Positions 27,578 to 40,381 of a DNA stretch of 64,000 bases are shown here, piece by piece. The notes under the pieces were generated by a model that saw only the letters and a program-made list of their open reading frames with translations, did not search any database and had not been told where the DNA came from. The number at the start of each line of letters is the position of its first letter. The first letter of the stretch is position 1. Source of the DNA: Indolivaga macrotermitis (GTDB lineage: Bacteria; Bacteroidota; Bacteroidia; Bacteroidales; Dysgonomonadaceae); assembly GCF_900128985.1 (NCBI RefSeq), contig NZ_FQUC01000019.1, forward strand, positions 1 to 64,000, in the 5' to 3' direction. Both the position numbers and the translations under genes were made by a program.

Positions 27578-29434
27578 TTATCTCGGAGTATTGTATCCGT
27601 CATTTTGAGCAAGATCAATAGCCCAAGCCATTATATTGGCAAAGAAATGCGAGTTATAAACCGTATAGCTGGAGGCATATCCGTATGCTTTTGTCAAAGG
27701 TTCGAAATTAGCATTATAATTCAAAGGACAAATGGTATTATAATTTCCTGCACCTAATTGCCGCGACCAGAATCCACCGTCACCACACCAGAATAAGTTC
27801 AGATTCCTGAATTTGCATGATGTGATTTCATCCGCACTTCCCTCAAGAGCATTGGATCCAGGGTTGCGGTAAATCCCATTCGAATATACATCCACAAAAC
27901 CTATGGGAACTCCGGTTACACATACAGTATTAGAAGCATCTTCGCCCCAGTTTTTCTCACGCACATCGCCAAACGGACCATTTAATATAGTAGATTCCAC
28001 TATATAATTAAAAGTAAAAATAGAACCGGCGCTTCTGGCAGCTGTTGTAGCTGCAGCTACAGAGGTTATATTAAGCGTACGGTTAAATAGTCGCTTTACT
28101 GCATCCGGAGCTTCTATAAAAGCTAACACAACTCCCTTATTTTCCAGATACCTGATCAGAATATCTATCGAGTTATCATCCGGAGTCCAGTTATAGGCAC
28201 AAACAATAATATCAGGCCTTTCGGTATCAATATAATTCTGCAATTGAGTGGAAGTTGGAGAAGCAACTGTCGCAACAGGGCTACCATTTATAAAATCGAA
28301 ACCCTCAGCTTTTATTTTACTATAAGATTCTGTCCCAAAATTATAAAGAGAATTCATCATTTTACGTCCACCGTACCCATACGTACCGGGATATAAACTG
28401 GTGGGAGGTAAAGCCAGGTTATAACCAAAATTATCATCTCCCCCGCGTCCGATACCCAATATTTTCATTTTACGATAAGCAATGTCCACAAAAGCGACAC
28501 ATGTCGCAACAGATGTGGCACTATTGGAGGTGATAATTAATCTTTTCCTGTCAAAGGAAGTAGGATCTCCCGAGCCTTTTAAAACAACAGTCTGGGTACC
28601 CCCTGCAAGAGTCCCCGTTCCGTAGAAACTAATTCCATCCACTTCATTAGTTGAAATTATATAAGTTGCACCATTTGCCGAAGCATCTACAGTCAATGTC
28701 AGAGTTATAGTATTAGTATTATCCAGTAATTTATTAACAACATACACTCCATTTACGACAACATCATCGCAATTCATTATATAATTAGGCTTAACAGACG
28801 AATCTTCGATCTTAATCCGAACACTACATTCCGAATCTATACCATCCAGGTAAAATTTCACGAGATCTCCTTCCCCTCCGGCAATTGTATGGTTCCGTGG
28901 AGTTCCTGCACCTTGCAGAATAAGATTAAAAAAACCTGTTGTTAGAAACTCACCCGATGCCATAAAATAATATCCGTTATCAGGCTCGGTCACTGCAGTT
29001 ACAATGTAAGATCCCGGCTTGGTAACCTCTACCTGTACCCTGATATAATGGCTTCCATCCAGAGATTCGTTACTGAGATATTGCCCATGCACCTGAATGG
29101 ATTGGCAATCCATCGTAAATTGAGCCTTTCCCAGCTTTCCGCAAACGCTTTGCCATTCGCTTTCCAATCGCGAATAATAATTATAACAGTCTTCATCAAT
29201 GTTATAGATGAGAATACCATTATCATCATCTACATCCACGATCACCATCTGATCTCTCTGTTCTGTTCTTAAACGGGGAATAAGTATTCCTCTGGGAATA
29301 GTGTCTGTCCCATTTACAATGTTCTTTACATCAAATTCGGTTAATCGGTGGGGACTCTGAGTATTGATCCCGACCTGAGCTTGTGATATCATTGAGATAA
29401 CAAGCCATAATAATGCTAGATAAAATTTTTTCAT
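27578..29434 (-). CDS. Large secreted protein with two beta-sandwich repeats and an alpha/beta C-terminal domain
   Basis: A 618-residue protein with signal peptide (MKKFYLALLWLVISMISQAQ) and the Bacteroidetes start VGINTQSPHRLTEFD often seen in surface proteins. Two related repeats follow, about 105-211 and 217-320. Each opens with M-[DN]-C and shares V.G.Y, LD, SY/TYI, and a GAG/GSG-P turn, suggesting tandem Ig-like or PKD-like sandwiches. The last 290 residues begin KMKILGIGRGGDDNFGY and contain RPDIIVCAYNWTPDD and LENKGVVLAFIE, like an alpha/beta or amidotransferase-type fold. No sorting signal is seen. Function unknown; adhesion or surface binding is a guess. Confidence 0.6.
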   Translation of the reverse strand: MKKFYLALLWLVISMISQAQVGINTQSPHRLTEFDVKNIVNGTDTIPRGILIPRLRTEQRDQMVIVDVDDDNGILIYNIDEDCYNYYSRLESEWQSVCGKLGKAQFTMDCQSIQVHGQYLSNESLDGSHYIRVQVEVTKPGSYIVTAVTEPDNGYYFMASGEFLTTGFFNLILQGAGTPRNHTIAGGEGDLVKFYLDGIDSECSVRIKIEDSSVKPNYIMNCDDVVVNGVYVVNKLLDNTNTITLTLTVDASANGATYIISTNEVDGISFYGTGTLAGGTQTVVLKGSGDPTSFDRKRLIITSNSATSVATCVAFVDIAYRKMKILGIGRGGDDNFGYNLALPPTSLYPGTYGYGGRKMMNSLYNFGTESYSKIKAEGFDFINGSPVATVASPTSTQLQNYIDTERPDIIVCAYNWTPDDNSIDILIRYLENKGVVLAFIEAPDAVKRLFNRTLNITSVAAATTAARSAGSIFTFNYIVESTILNGPFGDVREKNWGEDASNTVCVTGVPIGFVDVYSNGIYRNPGSNALEGSADEITSCKFRNLNLFWCGDGGFWSRQLGAGNYNTICPLNYNANFEPLTKAYGYASSYTVYNSHFFANIMAWAIDLAQNDGYNTPR

Positions 29435-30539: not shown

Positions 30540-30613
30540 CGCTCCCTCCTGGGCTTGAACCAGGGACCCCCTGATTAACAGTCAGATGCTCTAACCAACT
30601 GAGCTAAGGAAGC
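30540..30613 (-). tRNA. tRNA-Asn (anticodon GTT), second in tandem
   Basis: Cloverleaf of 74 nt. Acceptor GCTTCCT/AGGGAGC (one T-G pair) with discriminator G. The D-arm is GCTCAGTTGGTTAGAGC, the anticodon loop CTGTTAA with GTT at 30577-30579, and the T-arm CCTGG-TTCAAGC-CCAGG. The CCA end is not encoded. It follows the other tRNA-Asn by 26 bp and is probably cotranscribed. Confidence 0.95.
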
Positions 30614-30639
30614 AATCCAAAAATCTTTTTACATTAAAG

Positions 30640-30713
30640 CTCTTCAGGCTGGGCTCGAACCAGCGACCCTCTGATTAACAGTCAGATGCTCTAACCAACT
30701 GAGCTACTGAAGA
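30640..30713 (-). tRNA. tRNA-Asn (anticodon GTT), first in tandem
   Basis: Cloverleaf of 74 nt. Acceptor TCTTCAG/CTGAAGA, fully paired, with discriminator G. The D-arm is GCTCAGTTGGTTAGAGC, the anticodon loop CTGTTAA with GTT at 30677-30679, and the T-arm GCTGG-TTCGAGC-CCAGC. The D-arm and most of the anticodon arm are identical to the second copy, while the acceptor and T-stems differ in several compensated pairs. Confidence 0.95.
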
Positions 30714-30798: not shown

Positions 30799-31767
30799 AT
30801 GAAAGTATTAGGAATGGGAAATGCCTTGGTTGATGTCTTGGCATTAATAGATAATGACACCTTACTATCTCAGTTAGAGCTACCTAAAGGCAGCATGCAG
30901 CTTATCGACGAACAAAAGAAAGAAGCATTACATAAGGCTATGGAAAACATGGATACTTTCTTAGCATCAGGCGGATCGGCATCCAACACTATAACCGGCA
31001 TAGCAAAATTAGGTATAGGTACCGGATTTATCGGTCGTGTAGGTAAAGACTTTTACGGAAATTACTATAAAGAAGACCTCGAAGGATATAATGTAAAATC
31101 GCAACTGATTGTTTGTAACGAATCTTCGGGTGTAGCTACAACCTTCGTTTCGAAAGACGGGCAACGTACGTTCGGCACTTACTTAGGTGCAGCCGCCGGA
31201 TTATCAGCTGAAGACCTTAATTCTGAAGACTTTGCCGGATATGATTATTTTTATATCGAAGGCTATCTGGTACAAAACCTCAGCCTTATCCGTAAAGCAA
31301 TACTGTTAGCTAAAGAAAACGGACTGAAAGTCGTTCTCGATATGGCAAGCTACAATGTAGTGGAAGCCAGCAGAGACTTTCTGCTCGAAATCATTCCCGA
31401 ATATGTAGATATCATATTTGCAAACGAAGAAGAAGCTAAAGCCCTTTGTAACACCGAACCCGAAGAAGCCCTAGAGCAAATAGCCGGAATGGTAGATATA
31501 GCAATAGTGAAAATCGGCGAAAAAGGTTCTTTTATTAAACGGGGTGATGAAAAGGTATTCGTGCCTGCCTTAAAAGTAAACTGCATAGATACAACAGGAG
31601 CCGGAGACTTGTATGCCGCCGGATTCTTATACGGGCTCATTAACAATATGTCTCTTGAAGAAGCCGGAGAAGTAGGAACCCTACTTGCAGGAAATGTTAT
31701 TCAGGGAATGGGACCTAAAATGGATTCGGAAAAATGGGATGAATTAATTGCGATTGTAAAGAAGTAA
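30799..31767 (+). CDS. PfkB family carbohydrate/adenosine kinase
   Basis: A 322-residue kinase of the ribokinase/PfkB family, closest in pattern to adenosine kinase-like members. The N-terminus is GMGNALVDVLALID, the first PfkB signature is ASGGSASNTITGIAKLG (about residues 57-73), and the second is DTTGAGDLYAAGFLYGL, whose Asp is the catalytic base and whose GAGD forms the anion hole. The substrate is not certain (adenosine, inosine or a sugar). It ends at a strong terminator at the left border of the accessory segment. Confidence 0.85.
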   Translation: MKVLGMGNALVDVLALIDNDTLLSQLELPKGSMQLIDEQKKEALHKAMENMDTFLASGGSASNTITGIAKLGIGTGFIGRVGKDFYGNYYKEDLEGYNVKSQLIVCNESSGVATTFVSKDGQRTFGTYLGAAAGLSAEDLNSEDFAGYDYFYIEGYLVQNLSLIRKAILLAKENGLKVVLDMASYNVVEASRDFLLEIIPEYVDIIFANEEEAKALCNTEPEEALEQIAGMVDIAIVKIGEKGSFIKRGDEKVFVPALKVNCIDTTGAGDLYAAGFLYGLINNMSLEEAGEVGTLLAGNVIQGMGPKMDSEKWDELIAIVKK

Positions 31768-31867: not shown

Positions 31868-32020
31868 ATTTATATAAAACAGAAAAGGTTGTCATCACGA
31901 CAACCAATCTTCATTGTTAACCTTAAATCTAATACCATGAAAAACACAGTACAAATATAGATGTTTTATGTTATACAACATAATTTTTATACTTGTTTTT
32001 TCAAAAATTAACTCTATTTA
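31868..32020 (-). repeat. Dispersed repeat, copy 1
   Basis: First of three direct copies (others at 36127-36276 and 38970-39122). An 82-bp core is identical in all three; the rest differs by only a few bases. Copies 1 and 2 also share about 28 bp further right (to 32048 and 36304: CAAAATT, then AAAAAAGCATTTA). It contains a minus-strand small-RNA-like unit, and a palindrome TTATGTT/AACATAA at 31967-31984 upstream of that unit. Confidence 0.9.
31877..31946 (-). ncRNA. Putative small RNA, copy 1
   Basis: On the minus strand TATATTTG (31952-31959) gives a -7 element, and about 55-60 nt on, GGTTGTC-GTGAT-GACAACC (31887-31905) followed by TTTTCTGTTTT is a classical terminator. The predicted RNA is about 70 nt. 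The sequence is identical in all three copies through promoter and terminator. A short frame beginning at 31938 (MVLDLRLTMKIGCRDDNLF) overlaps the hairpin, so a micropeptide is an alternative. No function or family was recognised with confidence. Confidence 0.55.
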
Positions 32021-32194
32021 TCAAAATTCGAATTAAAAAAGCATTTATCCGGCTCGGATATACGTTTTTTAATAATATAAAGCTCTATAAAAGGGATCAA
32101 AAAGAAGTCCTCCGCAGGTGTGATTATACTAACCGAATTGATACTTATAAAAGGACAGTCAATCTTTTACCTATAAAGTTGAAAACGAAAATTT

Positions 32195-33736
32195 ATGGAA
32201 AGCAAGAAAACATATGGTTATAAAAGCTACTTAATCCTATCAGGCTTCATTATCCTGAAATTCATAATTCAGTATCATATGATAGCACAGGGTTATGAGC
32301 TGCACAGAGACGAGTTTTTACATCTCGATCAGGCGCACCATCTCGCATGGGGATTTGTTTCGATCCCTCCTTTCACCTCATGGACATCTTTACTCATATA
32401 CCATCTTGGGAATAGTATTTTCTGGATAAAATTCTTTCCGGCACTTTATGGAGCGCTAACCATATTAATCGCATGGAAGACAATAGAGACACTAAAAGGA
32501 AGCCTATTTGCATGTATATTAGGTGCAACGTCGTGTTTGCTATCTGCCTACCTGCGAATAAATACCTTATATCAGCCCAATTCGTTCGAAATCCTCAGTT
32601 GGGCATTCTTATTTTATTGTATTGTACGATACATATCATCCGAAAAAGATAAATGGCTTTATTGGTTTGCTATAGGTTTGGCATTTGCCTTCTTGAACAA
32701 GTATAATGTTATGTTTCTCACAATCGGCATCTTTATCGCCGTTTTACTAACCAAACACCGTAACATTTTCAAAAATAAGACAATATACATTGCTGCATGT
32801 ATCTCTTTAGTTATAGTTAGTCCCAATCTTATCTGGCAAATTAGTAACGGACTACCCGTAATCACGCACATGAAAGAACTAAGCAGTTCGCAATTGGTAA
32901 ACGTAGACCGCATATCATTTCTCAAAGAACAATTTCTATTTTTCCTTCCGTCATTTTTTGTAGTCATTTCAGGAATAGCCGGACTCTTTTTACATAAACC
33001 TTTTCGGCAATACAGGCTGATTGTATATACCTATATTCTTACAATATGCCTGTTTCTCTTTTTCAAGGGAAAGCCATATTACGCTTTGGGGCTTTATCCG
33101 GTATTAATTGCTTTCGGAGCCGTTTACATAGATAATCTGACAGGACAGAAATGGAGAAAACTGGTGTACCCGGTATTAATATCCTTCATTGTAGGAATAA
33201 GTATTCTTTATATACCTCTTATTTGCCCTATATTTTCACCCGAAAAAATAGAGAATGACCCGGAAATAACGGGACTCTACCAAAAAAGCGGGCAACTTAG
33301 ATGGGAAGATGGGAAAGAGCATCATATACCACAAGACTATGCAGATATGCTTGGCTGGAAAGACCTCACCAAAAAAACTTTACAGGCATGGGCTACGTTT
33401 GATCCACAACAACAAATGAAGACTCTTATATTATGTGATAATTACGGACACGCAGGAGCAATAAATTATTACAGTAACAGAGCCATAGAAGCGACATCAA
33501 TAAATGCCGATTACGCAGACTGGTTTCCGGGAAAAGAAAAAACGATTGAAAATATTATACAGGTAGGAGGAAAGATATCCGATAAATCTTACCACTATTT
33601 CGATACAATTTATGAATCCGGCAGTGTCGAAAACCGCCTTTCGAGAGAATACGGAACTCCAATATTTATATTAAAAAGGGCAAAGTTGCCGATTAATGGA
33701 GAATCGTTAAAACAAATACTATTAAATAAGGACTAA
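32195..33736 (+). CDS. GT39/ArnT-like membrane glycosyltransferase
   Basis: A 513-residue GT-C glycosyltransferase with about ten membrane segments. The first periplasmic loop has YELHRDEFLHLDQAHHLAWGFVSIPPF, matching the PMT/ArnT family in which an Asp in this loop is catalytic. The soluble C-terminal region (about 380-513) is typical. It probably transfers a sugar from a polyprenyl-phosphate donor to a lipid or polysaccharide on the periplasmic face. It is the first gene inside the accessory segment and has no glycan-pathway neighbours. Confidence 0.75.
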   Translation: MESKKTYGYKSYLILSGFIILKFIIQYHMIAQGYELHRDEFLHLDQAHHLAWGFVSIPPFTSWTSLLIYHLGNSIFWIKFFPALYGALTILIAWKTIETLKGSLFACILGATSCLLSAYLRINTLYQPNSFEILSWAFLFYCIVRYISSEKDKWLYWFAIGLAFAFLNKYNVMFLTIGIFIAVLLTKHRNIFKNKTIYIAACISLVIVSPNLIWQISNGLPVITHMKELSSSQLVNVDRISFLKEQFLFFLPSFFVVISGIAGLFLHKPFRQYRLIVYTYILTICLFLFFKGKPYYALGLYPVLIAFGAVYIDNLTGQKWRKLVYPVLISFIVGISILYIPLICPIFSPEKIENDPEITGLYQKSGQLRWEDGKEHHIPQDYADMLGWKDLTKKTLQAWATFDPQQQMKTLILCDNYGHAGAINYYSNRAIEATSINADYADWFPGKEKTIENIIQVGGKISDKSYHYFDTIYESGSVENRLSREYGTPIFILKRAKLPINGESLKQILLNKD

Positions 33737-33771
33737 ATATATTTATAGAGAAACAGTATCCAATTGTTTTG

Positions 33772-33779
33772 TACATTTG
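33772..33779 (+). promoter_or_regulatory. -7 element of the secreted protein gene at 33808
   Basis: TACATTTG fits TAnnTTTG and predicts a leader of about 23 nt. No TTG was found at the -33 distance. Confidence 0.5.
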
Positions 33780-33807
33780 TATATAGCACACTATAAATAA
33801 TTAATTT

Positions 33808-34521
33808 ATGAGACAGTTTTTATTAATAATATTTGCCTTTACTTCATTTCTAAATATTTCGGCTCAAGACAGGGTAAATAAACCTTTACCTACCATATCA
33901 GACCAGACCTTAGTCGTGCTAAACAAAGCTTTAGGCTGTTATTATTTCGAAAGCACAGGACAATGGCAGGAGCATGCGAACAATATCACAGGAGTAGATA
34001 ACTTTACGAAACTCGAATTCAGGGAGCTGACCTATCTCGGAAAGACCTATCTGGTCTTATTGAAATACTATATACAAGGAGATCATAGATACCCTACCCT
34101 TAAACTTGATTATAGAGAAGCTGAGTATATACGGTTTTATGCGATGGAAAAAGAGGATTACTTATCGGCTATAGATGAGTGTGGCACCGATTGTGTTATA
34201 AGAATAAAACCGATATACAGCACTTCTATGCTAAATGCCTTCGGCCCATTCGCTACTTTCGGTCGATTTAGTGTAGACTTCTTTGATGCTAAGAAGGAAC
34301 AAAAAGACAATATGTATATACAATTCAAAAAATATCCGGAGAAGAATATAGCCCGTTTTATTATTTATACAGACTGGAAGAACTCAAGGAACGAATACAT
34401 CCCCATGCTCAATAAAATGAGTGATCCCAATAATGTCAAGCTAGGTACAGAAGAACTTTATACTTCTTTTTATTATGAGACTACCCTCGATTCGTTCGAT
34501 AAGTTCTTTTATTTAAAGTGA
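33808..34521 (+). CDS. Secreted hypothetical protein
   Basis: A 237-residue protein with a clear signal peptide (MRQFLLIIFAFTSFLNISAQ) and no lipobox. The mature part (LNKALGCYYFESTGQWQEHANNI, TYLGKTYLVLLKYYIQGDHRYPTLKLDYREAEYIRFYAM) has mixed alpha/beta composition. It has three cysteines, two of them close together in DECGTDC. No domain was recognised. It lies between the glycosyltransferase and a convergent GNAT gene inside the repeat-bounded segment. Confidence 0.6.
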   Translation: MRQFLLIIFAFTSFLNISAQDRVNKPLPTISDQTLVVLNKALGCYYFESTGQWQEHANNITGVDNFTKLEFRELTYLGKTYLVLLKYYIQGDHRYPTLKLDYREAEYIRFYAMEKEDYLSAIDECGTDCVIRIKPIYSTSMLNAFGPFATFGRFSVDFFDAKKEQKDNMYIQFKKYPEKNIARFIIYTDWKNSRNEYIPMLNKMSDPNNVKLGTEELYTSFYYETTLDSFDKFFYLK

Positions 34522-34531
34522 TAGAAATATA

Positions 34532-35053
34532 TTATATCTCTCCATGTAAGTCAATCTCGAAAAGGCAACAGTTTGGTTCGTCTTGATAATGACTAGGCAA
34601 TGTTGCTGTGTCTGTCAATCTGGACATCCCTAAAAAATTAAATCCTGCCGAAGTATAATGCTTTATCAATTTAGTGTTATTGCCTAATGTATCTAAACGA
34701 ATAAATGGTTTTCTTATGTTTTTTCCATATTGTTTTGACCATTCTACAATTTTGTCAATGTACCTCTTTCCTCGAAAATCAGGATTGTTACATATCCGGT
34801 GAATATAAATCGAATCATCTTGATCTTTGTCGCCCCAAATTTCTTTGTCTCCAAATGTAATAGCCCAATTGCAGACAATTACATTATCAATAGTCATTTT
34901 CCATTGCCGTCCTTCAGTTATTTCATTTTCAATAAACGATTTCTGAAAAAATGGCCAGACTACCATTTGCCTTTGAATCTGGAGGTTTCTTGCTGCTTCA
35001 TACAGTGATAAAATTTTATTAGTATCAGTCAATACGCAATTTTCGATTTTCAT
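34532..35053 (-). CDS. GNAT family N-acetyltransferase
   Basis: A 173-residue acetyltransferase. The core has IYIHRICNNPDFRGKRYIDKIVEWSKQY (about residues 82-109), the acetyl-CoA binding loop, and then LDTLGNNTKLIKHYTSAGFNFLG, which is characteristic of the C-terminal half of GNATs. The substrate is unknown. A near-consensus -7 (GATCTTTG, 35080-35087) lies upstream on the minus strand. Confidence 0.75.
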   Translation of the reverse strand: MKIENCVLTDTNKILSLYEAARNLQIQRQMVVWPFFQKSFIENEITEGRQWKMTIDNVIVCNWAITFGDKEIWGDKDQDDSIYIHRICNNPDFRGKRYIDKIVEWSKQYGKNIRKPFIRLDTLGNNTKLIKHYTSAGFNFLGMSRLTDTATLPSHYQDEPNCCLFEIDLHGEI

Positions 35054-35106
35054 ATTTTAAAATGTTTTTTAACGTGTTGCAAAGATCAGATTTGTCCATA
35101 ACTTGT

Positions 35107-35214
35107 AAAACCCGATTCTTGCTGAAAGCAGGAACATGAAAGATTTGTAAAATAACATAGCTAGGGAATATAACTGATGAAAGAGGAAAACAAGGTAAGC
35201 AAGAATCGGGTTTT
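35107..35214. repeat. 17-bp perfect inverted repeat in the Ada-like promoter
   Basis: AAAACCCGATTCTTGCT (35107-35123) and AGCAAGAATCGGGTTTT (35198-35214) are perfect inverted arms separated by 74 bp. The right arm ends on the -33 position of the promoter for the Ada-like gene. This suits either a pair of operator sites for a looping regulator or the ends of a tiny insertion element. No target-site duplication is seen. Confidence 0.8.
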
Positions 35215-35241
35215 CTTCATAAGCTCATCATTATATCTTTG
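35211..35241 (+). promoter_or_regulatory. Promoter of the Ada-like gene
   Basis: TATCTTTG (35234-35241) with TTT at 35211-35213, 20 bp upstream, fits the Bacteroidetes pattern. The leader is about 23 nt to ATG 35269. The -33 box lies within the right arm of the 17-bp inverted repeat. Confidence 0.65.
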
Positions 35242-35268
35242 TATAAGAAATTAATAAAACAAACGAAA

Positions 35269-36108
35269 ATGAACTCTCAAGAAAGATTAGATTATATACG
35301 GATTGCAGAAGCGATTGAATATATCCGCGAGAACTTCAAAAATCAGCCCACGTTAGAAGATATTGCAGGCAAAGTTTGTTTAAGCCCTGCTCATTTTCAA
35401 CGTTTATTTACTGCCTGGGCAGGTGTCAGTCCTAAAAAGTTTCTGCAATACATCAGTATCGAACATGCGAAAAAAATTTTGAAGGAAAGCACACTATCCG
35501 ATGCCGCTTTTGAAACGGGACTTTCAGGCACAGGCCGTTTGCATGATTTATTTATCAATATTGAAGGAATGACACCCGGAGAGTACAAGAATGGCGGAGA
35601 AAGCCTCTCTATTAATTACAGCTTTGTGGAAAGTCCGTTTGGTAATATTATTGTCGCTGCTACGCCCAAAGGTATTTGCCATATGGCTTTTGCAGATGAA
35701 CCGGAGAATGCTTTTCGTACCTTGAAAGAAAAATTCCCAAATGCCAGATATTCCCAGATGGTGGATAGAATGCAACAAAATGCCATATTTATCTTCACTC
35801 AGGATTGGAATAAACTGAGCGAAATAAAATTACATTTAAAAGGTACAGAATTTCAATTGAAGGTATGGGAAACTTTGTTGAAAATACCAATGGGTAGCTT
35901 AAGCACTTATGGTGATATCGCTTCAAAATTGAATAACCCGAATGCTTCGCGAGCCATAGGTACTGCGATCGGCAATAATCCGGTAGCCTTCCTGATTCCT
36001 TGTCACAGGGTAATCCGTTCGTCAGGAGAATTGGGCGGATATCATTGGGGACTTACCCGTAAAACCGCAATTATCGGATGGGAAGCTGCAAAAACCTATA
36101 GAAGTTAG
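35269..36108 (+). CDS. Ada-like AraC regulator fused to O6-alkylguanine-DNA alkyltransferase
   Basis: About 279 residues. Residues 10-105 form an AraC-type double helix-turn-helix (LEDIAGKVCLSPAHFQRLFTAWAGVSP, DAAFETGLSGTGRLHDLF). Residues 115-275 form a methyltransferase domain with the active site IPCHRV (Cys about 245), preceded by the DNA-binding helix GDIASKLNNPNASRAIG. It should repair O6-alkylguanine by transferring the alkyl group to Cys and may regulate transcription. The N-terminal zinc methylphosphotriester domain of E. coli Ada is absent. ATG 35269 is chosen because the frame's earlier codons overlap the promoter. Confidence 0.88.
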   Translation: MNSQERLDYIRIAEAIEYIRENFKNQPTLEDIAGKVCLSPAHFQRLFTAWAGVSPKKFLQYISIEHAKKILKESTLSDAAFETGLSGTGRLHDLFINIEGMTPGEYKNGGESLSINYSFVESPFGNIIVAATPKGICHMAFADEPENAFRTLKEKFPNARYSQMVDRMQQNAIFIFTQDWNKLSEIKLHLKGTEFQLKVWETLLKIPMGSLSTYGDIASKLNNPNASRAIGTAIGNNPVAFLIPCHRVIRSSGELGGYHWGLTRKTAIIGWEAAKTYRS

Positions 36109-36126
36109 AGTATAGAAACGAACCAT

Positions 36127-36276
36127 TATAAAATAAGAAAAGGTTGTCATCACGACAACCAATCTTCATTGTTAACCTTAAATCTAATACCATGAAAAAC
36201 ACAGTACAAATATAGATATTTCATGTTATACAACATAATTTTTATACTTGCTTTTTCAAAAAAATAACTCTATTTA
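36127..36276 (-). repeat. Dispersed repeat, copy 2
   Basis: Second direct copy of the roughly 150-bp repeat, 19 bp after the Ada-like gene. The 82-bp core is identical to the other copies. Differences lie in the promoter-distal part (for example TTTCATG instead of TTTTATG, and CTTTTTC after ACTTG). Similarity to copy 1 continues to 36304. It separates two groups of accessory genes. Confidence 0.9.
36132..36201 (-). ncRNA. Putative small RNA, copy 2
   Basis: Same unit as copy 1: TATATTTG on the minus strand at 36207-36214, terminator stem GGTTGTC/GACAACC at 36142-36160 followed by a T-rich tail. This tail differs slightly from the other copies (TTTTCTTATTTTAT). The micropeptide frame would start at 36193. 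Confidence 0.55.
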
Positions 36277-36324
36277 GCAAAATTGGGATCAAAAAAGCAT
36301 TTATTTTACCATTTTATTGCCTGC

Positions 36325-36396
36325 TTTGTAGGGGCGTATTGCATACGCCTAAAAATAACATCAGACAAACGGATATATACAATACGCCCATACAAA
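36325..36396. repeat. Nested inverted repeat with GGCGTAT palindrome
   Basis: TTTGTAGGGGCGTATTG (36325-36341) pairs with CAATACGCCCATACAAA (36380-36396) with one mismatch over 17 bp. Inside it GGCGTAT (36333-36339) and ATACGCC (36343-36349) form a smaller hairpin. The GC-rich text in an AT-rich gap resembles a dispersed extragenic palindrome. Confidence 0.7.
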
Positions 36397-36600
36397 CCGG
36401 ATATGTTGCCATTGACTTACTTAATTCTTTTGAAAAAGAACAGTGGATTTTGAATCATCAGAATTGAGTATCCTGAATATTTAGTATTTTCAGAGCAGAA
36501 TAGAAACAAAGAATTGACAATTATTATGATGATACCAATTTAACCGTTCTTCCGACCTCTTGAGAAACACTCAAACTGCACTTTTCTAAAAATAAAACGA

Positions 36601-37461
36601 ATGACAAAAAATAAAATCGCAAAGAGAAAGTTAGTAATCATATTAAGCGCACTTGCACTATCCATAAATAGCTATGGACAAAATTGGGCTGATAGTATAT
36701 TTTATTCAAGTCTTCGCCCAAATGAAGATTTACAATTACAGACACTCTACACAGATACCCTTGAGTATATTGATTACGATGACAACTATGATAATTTCCT
36801 TATATCTGTAAAAAAAGACGATAAAACATTTGGAGAACTTATCTGTAACGATATTCACCAAATAGTTTCCGATTTGAATCTGAAACGTGGCGATATTATA
36901 GAAATGCAGTGGGCAATAGACAGTCTTCGCCCCGAAGGCGACAAAGAATTGCTCTGCTTTAGGGAATACGCCATAGAGATAACCAAAATAAAAGACGGCG
37001 AAAAAAGAATCGTGCCCACCGAAGAAATAGAAACAGAGGAAGCAACAAACAAAAGAATATTTGAGGTAAGTTATCAGTCGGGGAGCACAACAAAATATAC
37101 GCTAAGAAAGATAGGATTAGAAGTCGATAAGCCAATAATAAGCGTGAAATTTTGGGCAGAAAGATATATAAATGGAGAATGGAAATTTGCCACTTCCGAC
37201 TACTATTATCTCTACTACAAAGAAAATAAGATACAGAAAATTGAAGACCCTGGATTAAGCGATAACTTGTTGAAAACTAATCCTACCGAATGGGTAACAG
37301 CTTCAAAAAATTTGCAAACGAATTACCCTCTATGCTTGATGAACAAACAGAAGATGCCGAAAAAATTCGGGAATTATTATGGGATTCAGGAAAAGATGTT
37401 GCTATTTTGGTTGAAGACTCTGACGAAAGTGAAGTTATTGCTATTGAGGTTGTGGAAGTAA
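36601..37461 (+). CDS. Secreted hypothetical protein, probable frameshifted N-terminal part
   Basis: The frame gives 286 residues with a signal peptide (KLVIILSALALSINSYGQ). Acidic alpha/beta sequence continues to about residue 230 (SDNLLKTNPTEWVTAS). The last 50 residues (after A6 at 37305-37310) lie out of frame over the start of the next reading frame and have leucine/lysine-rich, noise-like composition. A one-base shift at the A6 run would join ASK to KFANELPSML in the next frame. It is therefore either a broken gene or one using -1 frameshifting. No known domain was recognised. Confidence 0.5.
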   Translation: MTKNKIAKRKLVIILSALALSINSYGQNWADSIFYSSLRPNEDLQLQTLYTDTLEYIDYDDNYDNFLISVKKDDKTFGELICNDIHQIVSDLNLKRGDIIEMQWAIDSLRPEGDKELLCFREYAIEITKIKDGEKRIVPTEEIETEEATNKRIFEVSYQSGSTTKYTLRKIGLEVDKPIISVKFWAERYINGEWKFATSDYYYLYYKENKIQKIEDPGLSDNLLKTNPTEWVTASKNLQTNYPLCLMNKQKMPKKFGNYYGIQEKMLLFWLKTLTKVKLLLLRLWK

Positions 37462-37868
37462 ATATAATCGAAGAAAGACGCAAACATTGGAAAACAGGCG
37501 AATTTCTTGACGAAATGGAAAGGAAGAAAATCATAATTCCTTTACTGAATGACCATTTAGAAATTAAAGAAGGAGGAGAATTTCCTTGTATTGTACACGT
37601 ATTACGGGGCAGTAGTTCCTATTTTGAGATAAAAAGGCGAGACGGAAAATACGTGATTGAGAACAAAAAATACGATACAATAGGCGAAGGAATAGAAGAT
37701 TATTTTAAGAACGACTATTTCAAACATTTTTATAAAAATGAAGAACAAAGGGAACAAATATGGGAATCATTTGTCAGGGATGGTAGTTTGCAAAGAGCGA
37801 TAGACTTCATAAATGAAATTATTGATGACGAGTTTCTTGATTCTCCATTGAATGAAATTTACGGATAG
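37290..37868 (+). CDS. Hypothetical acidic protein, possible C-terminal part of the preceding gene
   Basis: From ATG 37290 the frame gives 192 residues, acidic and without a signal peptide (ELPSMLDEQTEDAEKIRELL, VAILVEDSDESEVIAIEVVEV, WESFVRDGSLQRAIDFINEI). The same frame has a stop at 37278-37280, so it cannot extend further upstream. It overlaps the preceding frame by 172 bp, too much for a normal operon, so the two are probably one original gene joined at the A6 run. If independent it would be a cytosolic protein of unknown function. Confidence 0.5.
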   Translation: MGNSFKKFANELPSMLDEQTEDAEKIRELLWDSGKDVAILVEDSDESEVIAIEVVEVNIIEERRKHWKTGEFLDEMERKKIIIPLLNDHLEIKEGGEFPCIVHVLRGSSSYFEIKRRDGKYVIENKKYDTIGEGIEDYFKNDYFKHFYKNEEQREQIWESFVRDGSLQRAIDFINEIIDDEFLDSPLNEIYG

Positions 37869-37887
37869 AAAACAACTGAATGAGATA

Positions 37888-38874
37888 ATGATGGCATTAA
37901 AAAACATAGTAATCATTCTAAGCCTTCTTGTGTTGGTTTCATGTTATGGGCAAACAGAAAAAGCACAAACGAAAAGCCCACCAGAACAACAGCAAAATGA
38001 AAATTCATTAGAGGAAAGATATGATCATATTGAGACATTTTTTCACCAAGACCTAAAGGTGGTAGCAAAAAATGGTAAATAGGGATTTATCGACAGAACA
38101 GGGAGTGAAGCTATTCCTTTGAAATATGATTATGCTTGGGCTTTCCAATCGAATAAAGATTACGCTCAGGTAAGATTAGATGACGAAACATTTTTTATTG
38201 ACAAGGTAGGACAAAAGCTGGACACCGACAGTATTGATGCACTTGAATGGCAAGAACGTATGGATGAATTTAACGTCAATCCTCTTGTTTCGGCAAAAGA
38301 AGTAACGAGAATAGCTCCCATCATTAAAAAATGGACTGATTTTTACAAACTTGATTTTACAGCAGCACGGCTTATAAGTCGTAACGATAGCGCTTGCATA
38401 AAATGTCCCTCCTCCCCCGAAACAGATGGTGTAAACTATCGGGAGTTTGAAAAAGGAGTTGATACAGGCAAGCGTACAGATGTAGATTATTCACCTGACA
38501 AACAATGGTACGTAGATTTGGGGATAATGTACGACGAAATGGACGGAAAAAAATATTTCATAGGTTGGGACGATTGTCAATCAATATACCTTATTGACCG
38601 TAAACGAAAACACCAAAATATGATTATGTGGAATGGAAGTTCAGGATTAGCAGAAGGTGTATTTTGGAAATCTAATGATCTGTTTGTGGTTGTAGGATAT
38701 GATCATAATTGTCGATTTATAAAAGTATTTGATATTGTAAACGAAACAATAAGTCATTACCAAATAATACTTAAAGAAGACAATATCGGTGGATATATGA
38801 ATAAGGTATACCTGAAAGAGAAAGGAATAATTACAGAAGACGATGCCGGATACGATAAATATATGAATCAATAA
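37888..38874 (+). pseudogene. WG-repeat lipoprotein gene interrupted by an amber codon
   Basis: From ATG 37888 a lipoprotein signal (IVIILSLLVLVSC) leads to AKNGK, then TAG at 38080-38082, and the same frame continues GFIDRTGSEAIPLKYDYAWAF to a stop at 38872-38874. The pattern KWGFIDRTG...IPLKYD is the WG repeat, and the stop stands exactly where its Trp codon TGG belongs. The full product would be about 328 residues, with a beta-rich C-terminal part (DVDYSPDKQWYVDLGIMYDEMDGKKYFIGWDD). Either it is a recent pseudogene or the amber codon is read through. It follows another damaged gene. Confidence 0.75.
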
Positions 38875-38969
38875 TTATTCTATATACATCTTCTTTTTTC
38901 CATGTAGGCTATGCCAACCTGTCTTTTCAACATGTGTAACTCTCTTATTTTTAAACTATTTACACTAAT

Positions 38970-39122
38970 TTATATATAAAACAGAAAAGGTTGTCATCAC
39001 GACAACCAATCTTCATTGTTAACCTTAAATCTAATACCATGAAAAACACAGTACAAATATAGATATTTTATGTTATACAACATAATATTTATACTTGTTT
39101 TTTCAAAAATTAACTCTATTTA
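38970..39122 (-). repeat. Dispersed repeat, copy 3
   Basis: Third direct copy of the repeat, identical in the 82-bp core. Its right end (ACTCTATTTAGCA) runs through the stop codon and last codons of rmuC; copy 2 carries the same ACTCTATTTAGCA sequence and copy 1 a one-base variant. Confidence 0.9.
38979..39048 (-). ncRNA. Putative small RNA, copy 3
   Basis: TATATTTG on the minus strand (39054-39061), a predicted start near 39048, and a terminator stem GGTTGTC/GACAACC at 38989-39007 with TTTTCTGTTTT after it. The palindrome TTATGTT/AACATAA lies just upstream of the -7 element, around 39069-39086. It is downstream of rmuC on the same strand. The micropeptide frame would start at 39040. Confidence 0.55.
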
Positions 39123-40381
39123 GCAGAATCTCCACCCGGAAGATCCTTTTGAGCCTTCACTCCAAGTTCTTTTAACATTTCGGCCTGCCTTATCAGGTTA
39201 CCACTGCCATCTCTCAGTTGCCCGAAAGCCTTGTCATAACTCTTCTGTGTACGTTCGATATTCTTACCTACATCCTGCAAAGTTTCTACAAATCCTGCAA
39301 ACTTATCATAGAGTATAGCTCCACGACGAGCAATTTCCTGTGCATTACGGCTCTGATATTCACGTTTCCAGAGATCAGCAACCACCTTGAGTGACGCAAT
39401 AAGATTAGTCGGACTTATTAGTAAGATGCGTTTCCGGTAAGCATAATCCCAAATAGAAGAGTCGAGCTGCATCGCCAGAATATAGGCAGGTTCGTTAGGG
39501 ATAAACATCATCACAAAATCAAGCGAATCAATATAATCCTGATACGATTTGGAACTCAGCTCATCAATGTGTTTTTTGATAGATAGAATATGCTCCTTTT
39601 CTCCCACCAAACGCTCTTCATCCGTTTCCGATTCAACATAACGGACATAGCCGTTCAGCGAAACCTTCGAGTCAATCACAATCTTACGTCCTCCGGGATA
39701 AACAACTACCACATCGGGCTGCAATGCTTTATTTTCGTCATTCAGAATTCGTTCACCGTTCTCGTTAGTCAGTATTTCCTGTGTAAAATATTCCTCTCCC
39801 TTTTTCAGCCCCGATTTTTCGAGGATCGACTCAAGAATCATTTCACCCCAGTTTCCCTGAATTTTATTATTCCCTTTCAAAGCCTTAGTAAGGTTATTCG
39901 CATCTTCACTGATCTGGTAATTTAGGGCGACCAGTTCGCGTATACGTTCTTCGAGCGAAAAACGTTGCTTGGACTCTTTATCGTAAGTTTCCTCAACCCG
40001 GGTTTTGAACTCGGTCAGCTTTTCCCTCAACGGATTCAGTATCGACTCCATATTCTGGCGGTTCATATCAGTAAATTTCGATGTTTTTTCTTCCAGAATA
40101 CGGTTTGCCAATATCTGAAAATCCTTATTCAGCTGTTCGCGGGTGTTCGCCAGTTCTTCTTGTTGAGTAGCAAGCAACGCCTCCTTAGATTGCAGCGAAG
40201 CTTCCAGCAAAGCCTTCGTCTGTACCGATTCTATCTCGCGACGTTGAAATTCGGAAGATTCATTTCTCAGCCTTTCGTTTTCCTGCTTCAATTCTTCTAT
40301 CTGCTGCTTTCCTGAGCGATACACCCAAAAAACTGAAAATAAAGCAAATGCAATAATTATAGCAATATAAATAAACTCCAT
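39116..40381 (-). CDS. rmuC: DNA recombination protein RmuC family
   Basis: A 421-residue protein: one N-terminal membrane segment (IYIAIIIAFALFSVFWVY), a long coiled coil (about residues 22-115, with repeated LEASLQSKEALLATQQEEL-type heptads), and the RmuC nuclease-like domain with GNWGEMILESILEKSGLKKGEEY, PDVVVVYPGGRKIVIDSKVSLNGY and ISPTNLIASLKVVADLWKREYQSRNAQEIARRG. RmuC limits DNA inversions and is thought to cut at recombining sites. Its stop codon lies in repeat copy 3, which forms the right edge of the accessory segment. Confidence 0.88.
   Translation of the reverse strand: MEFIYIAIIIAFALFSVFWVYRSGKQQIEELKQENERLRNESSEFQRREIESVQTKALLEASLQSKEALLATQQEELANTREQLNKDFQILANRILEEKTSKFTDMNRQNMESILNPLREKLTEFKTRVEETYDKESKQRFSLEERIRELVALNYQISEDANNLTKALKGNNKIQGNWGEMILESILEKSGLKKGEEYFTQEILTNENGERILNDENKALQPDVVVVYPGGRKIVIDSKVSLNGYVRYVESETDEERLVGEKEHILSIKKHIDELSSKSYQDYIDSLDFVMMFIPNEPAYILAMQLDSSIWDYAYRKRILLISPTNLIASLKVVADLWKREYQSRNAQEIARRGAILYDKFAGFVETLQDVGKNIERTQKSYDKAFGQLRDGSGNLIRQAEMLKELGVKAQKDLPGGDSAK

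Follow-up and report, generated by a model that had tools for sequence, protein, structure and literature searches.

Why would a short stretch of DNA occur three times within some 7 kb of a bacterial chromosome, its core without a single difference while its flanks have drifted? This question is raised by a locus in the 64,000-nucleotide (nt) window analysed here, which covers positions 1 to 64,000 of contig NZ_FQUC01000019.1 of Indolivaga macrotermitis (Bacteroidales, Dysgonomonadaceae). The three repeats are paralogous genes of FopS, a small RNA (sRNA) family, and each promoter carries a palindrome of the type recognized by the Crp-family regulator Cur (BT4338). Our best explanation, to which we give a probability of about 0.68, is a FopS triplet that Cur represses through this palindrome.

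Three paralogous FopS genes

An earlier note on this DNA, made from the sequence alone, had described a triplicate repeat with an identical 82-bp core containing a minus-strand TATATTTG element and a GGTTGTC/GACAACC terminator with a T-run, and had read it as an independent sRNA of some 70 nt encoded on the minus strand. This was borne out. The block measures exactly 82 bp in all three direct copies (31881-31962, 36136-36217 and 38983-39064), both elements are present, and on the minus strand it corresponds to 15 nt upstream of the RNA start followed by 67 nt of RNA. Over the somewhat longer segments first delimited, pairwise identity is 143/154, 149/153 and 143/154; RNA positions +1 to +62 are identical (62/62) in every pair, while the same pairs share 20-33 of 37 positions from -82 to -45 and 10-16 of 35 from +76 to +110. 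The Rfam search that the note had recommended assigned all three copies to RF04319 (FopS), at 77, 77 and 78.5 bits against a curated cut-off of 56 (E values between 7.7e-10 and 1.5e-9 in a search of the entire window).

FopS itself is already known, having been published as a multicopy sRNA of Bacteroides, where its action has been demonstrated by others. B. thetaiotaomicron possesses 14 paralogues of about 65-70 nt, with expression shown at about 65 and 70 nt (PMC11697453); the RNA pairs close to the start codon of SusC-type glycan transporter mRNAs and thereby represses their translation. Bile salts induce it, and the protein RbpB binds it and opposes its action. The copies studied here resemble it in length, 5' seed, terminator hairpin, multicopy nature and TAnnTTTG promoter, but their number is lower, with six RF04319 matches in the genome, five above the cut-off and one weak, versus 12-15 reported (PMC11697453). 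RbpB is an RNA recognition motif (RRM) protein, and the genome encodes three RRM_1 proteins that are putative FopS binders. FopS was found in 6/6 genomes of the genus, 66/66 genomes searched in the family and 90/392 genomes of the order at E ≤ 0.001 (77 above the cut-off). FopS-like sequences are also carried, unannotated and beside a DNA methyltransferase gene, by Bacteroides phage BX-TP2 (L401), and by 17 viral contigs (L384-L400), two of which (L386 and L397) closely match a B. ovatus copy (L403). A second family, GibS (RF04182), has a seed region in common with FopS over the first ~31 nt; it was rejected, since its matches in this genome reach 40.5-50.9 bits against a cut-off of 115 and coincide with the FopS genes.

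The earlier note had left open whether identity of the core reflects selection on a functional RNA or gene conversion, and had named a core varying as freely as its flanks as the observation that would speak against function. Across the genus the core is near-invariant and the flanks diverge. In nine copies that share one promoter type and come from six genus genomes, positions +1 to +62 show a mean identity of 99% with a single variable column, while the tail and the segments -110 to -45 and +76 to +110 average 32-66% (an ungapped comparison, in which length changes lower the flank values). Because only one column varies among these nine copies, selection rather than gene conversion alone is supported. 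More widely, the first 31 nt are near-invariant over 244 distinct FopS sequences (gathered by a pattern tolerating three mismatches in the first 21), except for base 12, which is G in 82%. Each of the three copies has an 8-pair terminator stem followed by a T-run. With stems read singly, 242 sequences yielded 47 distinct terminator stems, mostly compensated, and 161 passed the T-run test; RNAalifold on a 23-row alignment with misaligned terminators missed the hairpin and returned 0 compensated pairs. The first 24 nt are mostly unpaired in the minimum-energy folds of 113/242 sequences.

That note had also considered that the core might code for a micropeptide, MVLDLRLTMKIG. Although the frame stays open over the 63 nt tested in 158 of the 199 sequences with an ATG, the ATG is absent from 45/244 distinct sequences, 41 of the 199 are truncated within 21 codons, and insertions of 1 nt and other lengths break the frame in some. 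Small frames were also excluded in B. thetaiotaomicron by the authors of the FopS paper (PMC11697453). The micropeptide was rejected and is in our view extremely improbable.

A Cur-type palindrome at the position of the -33 element

The palindrome that the earlier note had placed upstream of the promoter is indeed there, but its placement needs correction: in all three copies it ends 7 nt before TATATTTG and occupies the position of the -33 element. In copies 1 and 3 the palindrome TATGTTGTATAACATA satisfies all fixed positions of the sequence wwwTATGTTnTAnAACATAwww. This was put forward as the BT4338 consensus (PMC3878776) and has support from chromatin immunoprecipitation sequencing (ChIP-seq) and from an experiment in which the fusA2 site was deleted (PMC6989115); that Cur binds it in Bacteroides has been shown by others. 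Cur is the master regulator of sugar utilization in this bacterial group and has been reported to work in both directions, activating and repressing. Copies 1 and 3 are the only perfect consensus matches in the whole genome (4.66 Mb), and copy 2 is among ten places with one mismatch.

The site recurs far beyond this genome. The counts below hold among the matches listed: order and family loci are the best matches of longer lists, rows with N or a short flank being excluded, and the named contigs (L081-L199), retrieved by exact match to a 32-mer that is characteristic of the FopS type in the window, are biased to that type. On the named contigs, the palindrome (≤2 mismatches) was present in 80/131 distinct promoters, 79 of the sites starting at -35 to -39, against a shuffle expectation of 0.5 promoters. 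A larger set gave 140/249, with controls of 13/247 (-150 to -75) and 2/207 (+75 to +150). The final count comprised 277 distinct promoters, 132 of which have a proximal site (≤2 mismatches, beginning at -34 to -39), 14 a distal one near -68, two a site elsewhere and 129 none; the proximal class spans at least 12 Bacteroidales families, that of I. macrotermitis and no fewer than 11 others. These classes differ in two further respects. The -33 element (TTTG-N18-22-TAnnTTTG) is found in 0/132 proximal, 11/14 distal and 62/129 site-less promoters, and RNA base 12 tracks promoter class, being G in 127/132 proximal and A in 13/14 distal copies (78 G and 51 A among the site-less). The Fisher value of the promoter-class count (9.4e-17) overstates certainty because distinct promoters share descent. 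Among eight FopS genes examined in Bacteroides finegoldii, one promoter has a perfect proximal site, five have a site at -68 with ≤2 mismatches (one perfect), one has a site at -68 with three mismatches and one has no site. According to the FopS paper the promoters are canonical, do not strongly sub-diversify and answer to an unknown regulator responsive to bile (PMC11697453), in contrast to the promoter classes split by a Cur-type site found here. A further FopS promoter type lacks TAnnTTTG and shows a conserved box upstream that resembles TGAACTT or GTGAACTA (L012, L014, L017, L025, L029, L060, L134, L152 and L178). These may be promoters of an alternative sigma factor.

From the match to the consensus, we consider it quite probable that a Cur-type regulator binds the three FopS promoters of the window. 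The palindrome might instead serve another regulator, or be mere sRNA promoter sequence, with Cur uninvolved. There is more than one Crp-type protein in the genome (two above the Pfam cut-off), and the published inducer of FopS is bile (PMC11697453). Against this, two of the three copies meet all 14 fixed positions, and the family's perfect palindromes precede genes for LacI-, GntR- and Nudix-type regulators and sugar genes (assigned by eye), which is how the published Cur regulon is made up (PMC3878776). This alternative is in our view rather improbable.

Sign of the proposed regulation and putative targets

Would Cur block these promoters or switch them on? In the family, a perfect palindrome followed within 3-33 nt by TAnnTTTG was found in 44/66 genomes, and in none of the 66 with the backward control. 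Spacing between palindrome and box is 7-11 nt at all 18 FopS sites at the loci examined. At 57 non-FopS sites it is 32-33 nt in 34, among them genes for LacI-, GntR- and Nudix-type regulators, 8-11 nt in 14 and other in nine. In Bacteroidaceae-like genomes, non-FopS sites were matched in 1/10 genomes, at two places; the named loci away from FopS gave five site-orientations with ≤1 mismatch, one with a spacing of 8; and the ara-like site of the own genome (L233) has no TAnnTTTG within 80 nt. A site that overlies the core promoter with a loose spacing of 7-11 nt suggests a block rather than an activator, and, given binding, the positions of the sites make repression somewhat the better supported effect of Cur at these FopS promoters.

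We propose the following scheme. Each copy would be transcribed leftwards from its TAnnTTTG promoter into an RNA of ~70 nt, whose 5' seed GUGUUUUUCAUGGUAUUAGAU, presumably exposed, is complementary to the starts AAUACCAUGAAAAAC of many messages for exported proteins and, by analogy with B. thetaiotaomicron, might block their translation initiation. In this promoter class the Cur consensus palindrome would replace the -33 element, and Cur, by binding it, would most likely block transcription. With good sugars plentiful, Cur would be inactive, FopS made and glycan-use messages silenced; with carbon short, active Cur would turn FopS off and these messages would be freed. In enterobacteria, the Crp-type regulator CRP represses Spot 42, an sRNA that silences sugar-use messages. 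The proposed logic is the same, although RNA and species are unrelated and repression is here a prediction.

The FopS targets in this genome are candidates. AATACCATGAAAAAC with ≤2 mismatches occurs at 49 places, five of which are FopS genes, versus 25 for the backward control; of the 44 non-FopS places 25 were examined, and 10 of these coincide with the ATG that opens a frame of 200 amino acids (aa) or longer. These ten putative targets include Porin_O_P, GH5, GH89, GH95, GH88, TonB_C/M56 and Laminin_G proteins, and three without a family above the cut-off. Part of the seed enrichment is composition, because ATGAAAAA starts are common in exported proteins, and the duplex energies (z -1.5 to -5.5) are not independent, because the sites were chosen by seed match. 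One of the last three is a neighbour within the window: the gene of a large exported protein without a Pfam match (27578-29434, minus strand), with a start, AATACTATGAAAAAA, that complements the FopS seed.

A number of points weigh against this explanation. As regards Cur itself, the palindrome at ≤2 mismatches is not enriched genome-wide (77 places per strand reading versus 100 for the backward control); neither 3-kb locus of the two Crp-type proteins has a palindrome with fewer than three mismatches, while BT4338 is reportedly preceded by one; and PDB and NCBIfam searches with both proteins single out no Cur orthologue. Bile salts rather than a sugar are the published inducer, and SusC proteins, the established target class of B. 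thetaiotaomicron, are absent from the ten candidates. As regards spacing, the search that gave the 32-33 nt value spanned 3-33 nt; 14/57 non-FopS sites likewise lie at 8-11 nt, ten of them being one recurring structured leader of other genera; and in the own genome the sites with ≤1 mismatch either lack a box or have it at a distance of 32 to 74 nt. As regards sign, the lost -33 element could equally well belong to a promoter that needs Cur as activator, most Bacteroides FopS genes examined have the site at -68, where activation is likelier, and the only sRNA known under Cur, MasB of B. thetaiotaomicron, is activated by it (PMC10994844). The structured leader just mentioned, GGCAAGCG...CGGTTGCC, belongs to other genera of the family (L298, L301, L311, L314, L315, L320, L325, L333, L335, L336 and L337), where it is preceded by a Cur-type palindrome at a distance of 8-10 nt from the -7 box; a search of five of these loci against Rfam gave no match to it.

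The same sRNA and the same Cur site could thus operate with the opposite sign, FopS being made under carbon limitation and silencing host-glycan loci that lack their substrate. That no proximal promoter listed keeps the -33 TTTG is reminiscent of activator-dependent promoters, MasB provides a precedent, and the FopS paper places SusC repression at 'when substrates are limited' (PMC11697453). MasB differs in its target, the mRNA of a tetratricopeptide protein (PMC10994844). The site at FopS is centred near -28 with a spacing that drifts over 5 nt, unlike the 32-33 nt at sugar-regulator genes, and we regard activation as possible though unlikely, and repression by Cur as the preferred reading.

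The locus and the meaning of the proposed circuit

The features of the locus are collected in Table 1. In two relatives (G005, locus L010, and G003, locus L011) a single FopS gene lies directly between pfkB and rmuC, its left flank resembling that of copy 1 and its right flank that of copy 3; in a third (G001) ~1.1 kb separates FopS from pfkB. In the window, ~7 kb including copy 2 lies between copies 1 and 3, and G005 and G003 are without these genes here. The neighbours of the copies thus differ because the FopS repeat borders ~7 kb of genes without counterpart at the site in two relatives. In G008 (L070), two FopS genes next to rmuC enclose a homologue of the window's glycosyltransferase (68% over 474 aa). 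Recombination between direct FopS repeats would thus have either added the extra genes in this genome or removed them in others. The frames of block 2 look broken, two overlapping at 37290-37461 and an in-frame TAG (38080-38082) splitting another. An inverted repeat with 21-nt arms, 90% complementary, around GGGGCGTATTGCATACGCC (36325-36396) forms a small repeat element adjoining copy 2, and two near-identical tandem tRNA genes (30540-30713, minus strand) are found likewise beside pfkB in L010 and L011.

Table 1. Coordinates of the FopS genes, their control elements and neighbouring genes in the window
Feature	Positions	Strand	Details
FopS sRNA gene copy 1	31875-31947	-	RF04319, 77 bits; identical 82-bp block; RNA start set at 31947
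FopS sRNA gene copy 2	36132-36202	-	RF04319, 78.5 bits
FopS sRNA gene copy 3	38977-39049	-	RF04319, 77 bits
-7 box TATATTTG copy 1	31952-31959	-	sequence
-7 box TATATTTG copy 2	36207-36214	-	sequence
-7 box TATATTTG copy 3	39054-39061	-	sequence
Terminator hairpin copy 1	31887-31905	-	
Terminator hairpin copy 2	36142-36160	-	
Terminator hairpin copy 3	38989-39007	-	
Cur/BT4338-type palindrome copy 1	31967-31982		14/14 fixed positions
Cur/BT4338-type palindrome copy 2	36222-36237		13/14 fixed positions
Cur/BT4338-type palindrome copy 3	39069-39084		14/14 fixed positions
pfkB-family kinase	30799-31767	+	Pfam PF00294; left neighbour of single FopS in relatives
Extra block 1, PMT_2-type glycosyltransferase	32195-33736	+	Pfam PF13231
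Extra block 1, rest	33808-36108		33808-34521 (+) and 34532-35053 (-), no Pfam match; 35269-36108 (+), AraC/O6-methylguanine methyltransferase fusion
Extra block 2	36601-38874	+	Reading frames disrupted by a frame change and a TAG; none of three scanned with a Pfam match
rmuC	39116-40381	-	Pfam PF02646; right neighbour of single FopS in relatives

Could the repeat be a mobile element, for example a miniature transposon, identical through recent copying and not through function? Direct copies with differing neighbours would fit, as would the same orientation in 24/24 neighbouring FopS pairs within 5 kb (among the matches listed; one pair of opposite orientation, 10 kb apart, was seen at order level, in G285) and the presence of FopS on phage and viral contigs. 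Neither terminal inverted repeats nor a target duplication were seen, however, and the near-invariance of the RNA part across species with diverged flanks, the retained promoter and terminator and the function demonstrated by others make this most improbable.

No link between Cur and the FopS promoters, and nothing on the difference in spacing or on the FopS genes between pfkB and rmuC, was found in the literature searched, a search that left aside supplementary files, preprints and subscription journals. The FopS paper mentions Cur once, for a mutant phenotype, and its authors invoke an unknown regulator of FopS transcription (PMC11697453); sRNAs near BT4338 sites have been tested elsewhere for another purpose (PMC10294740). 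Existing data (Cur ChIP-seq and Theta-Base RNA-seq) would allow the proposed wiring to be tested.

A bolder idea, which we hold only tentatively, is that FopS consists of two or more isoform sets encoded by their promoters and read oppositely by Cur, the G12/proximal set being turned off and the A12/distal (-68) set turned on under carbon limitation, with the FopS repeat serving in addition as a site where genes are collected and lost by recombination. If so, since base 12 pairs with the nucleotide immediately preceding the AUG, switching would alter the set of silenced messages, and Bacteroidota would possess an equivalent of Spot 42/CRP in which two RNAs are exchanged for each other. More generally, a common seed under different switches offers a possible reason for the many copies, and a conserved Cur site would bring the transcription factor Cur and the FopS RNAs, the two principal controls known for glycan use in Bacteroidota, into one circuit.

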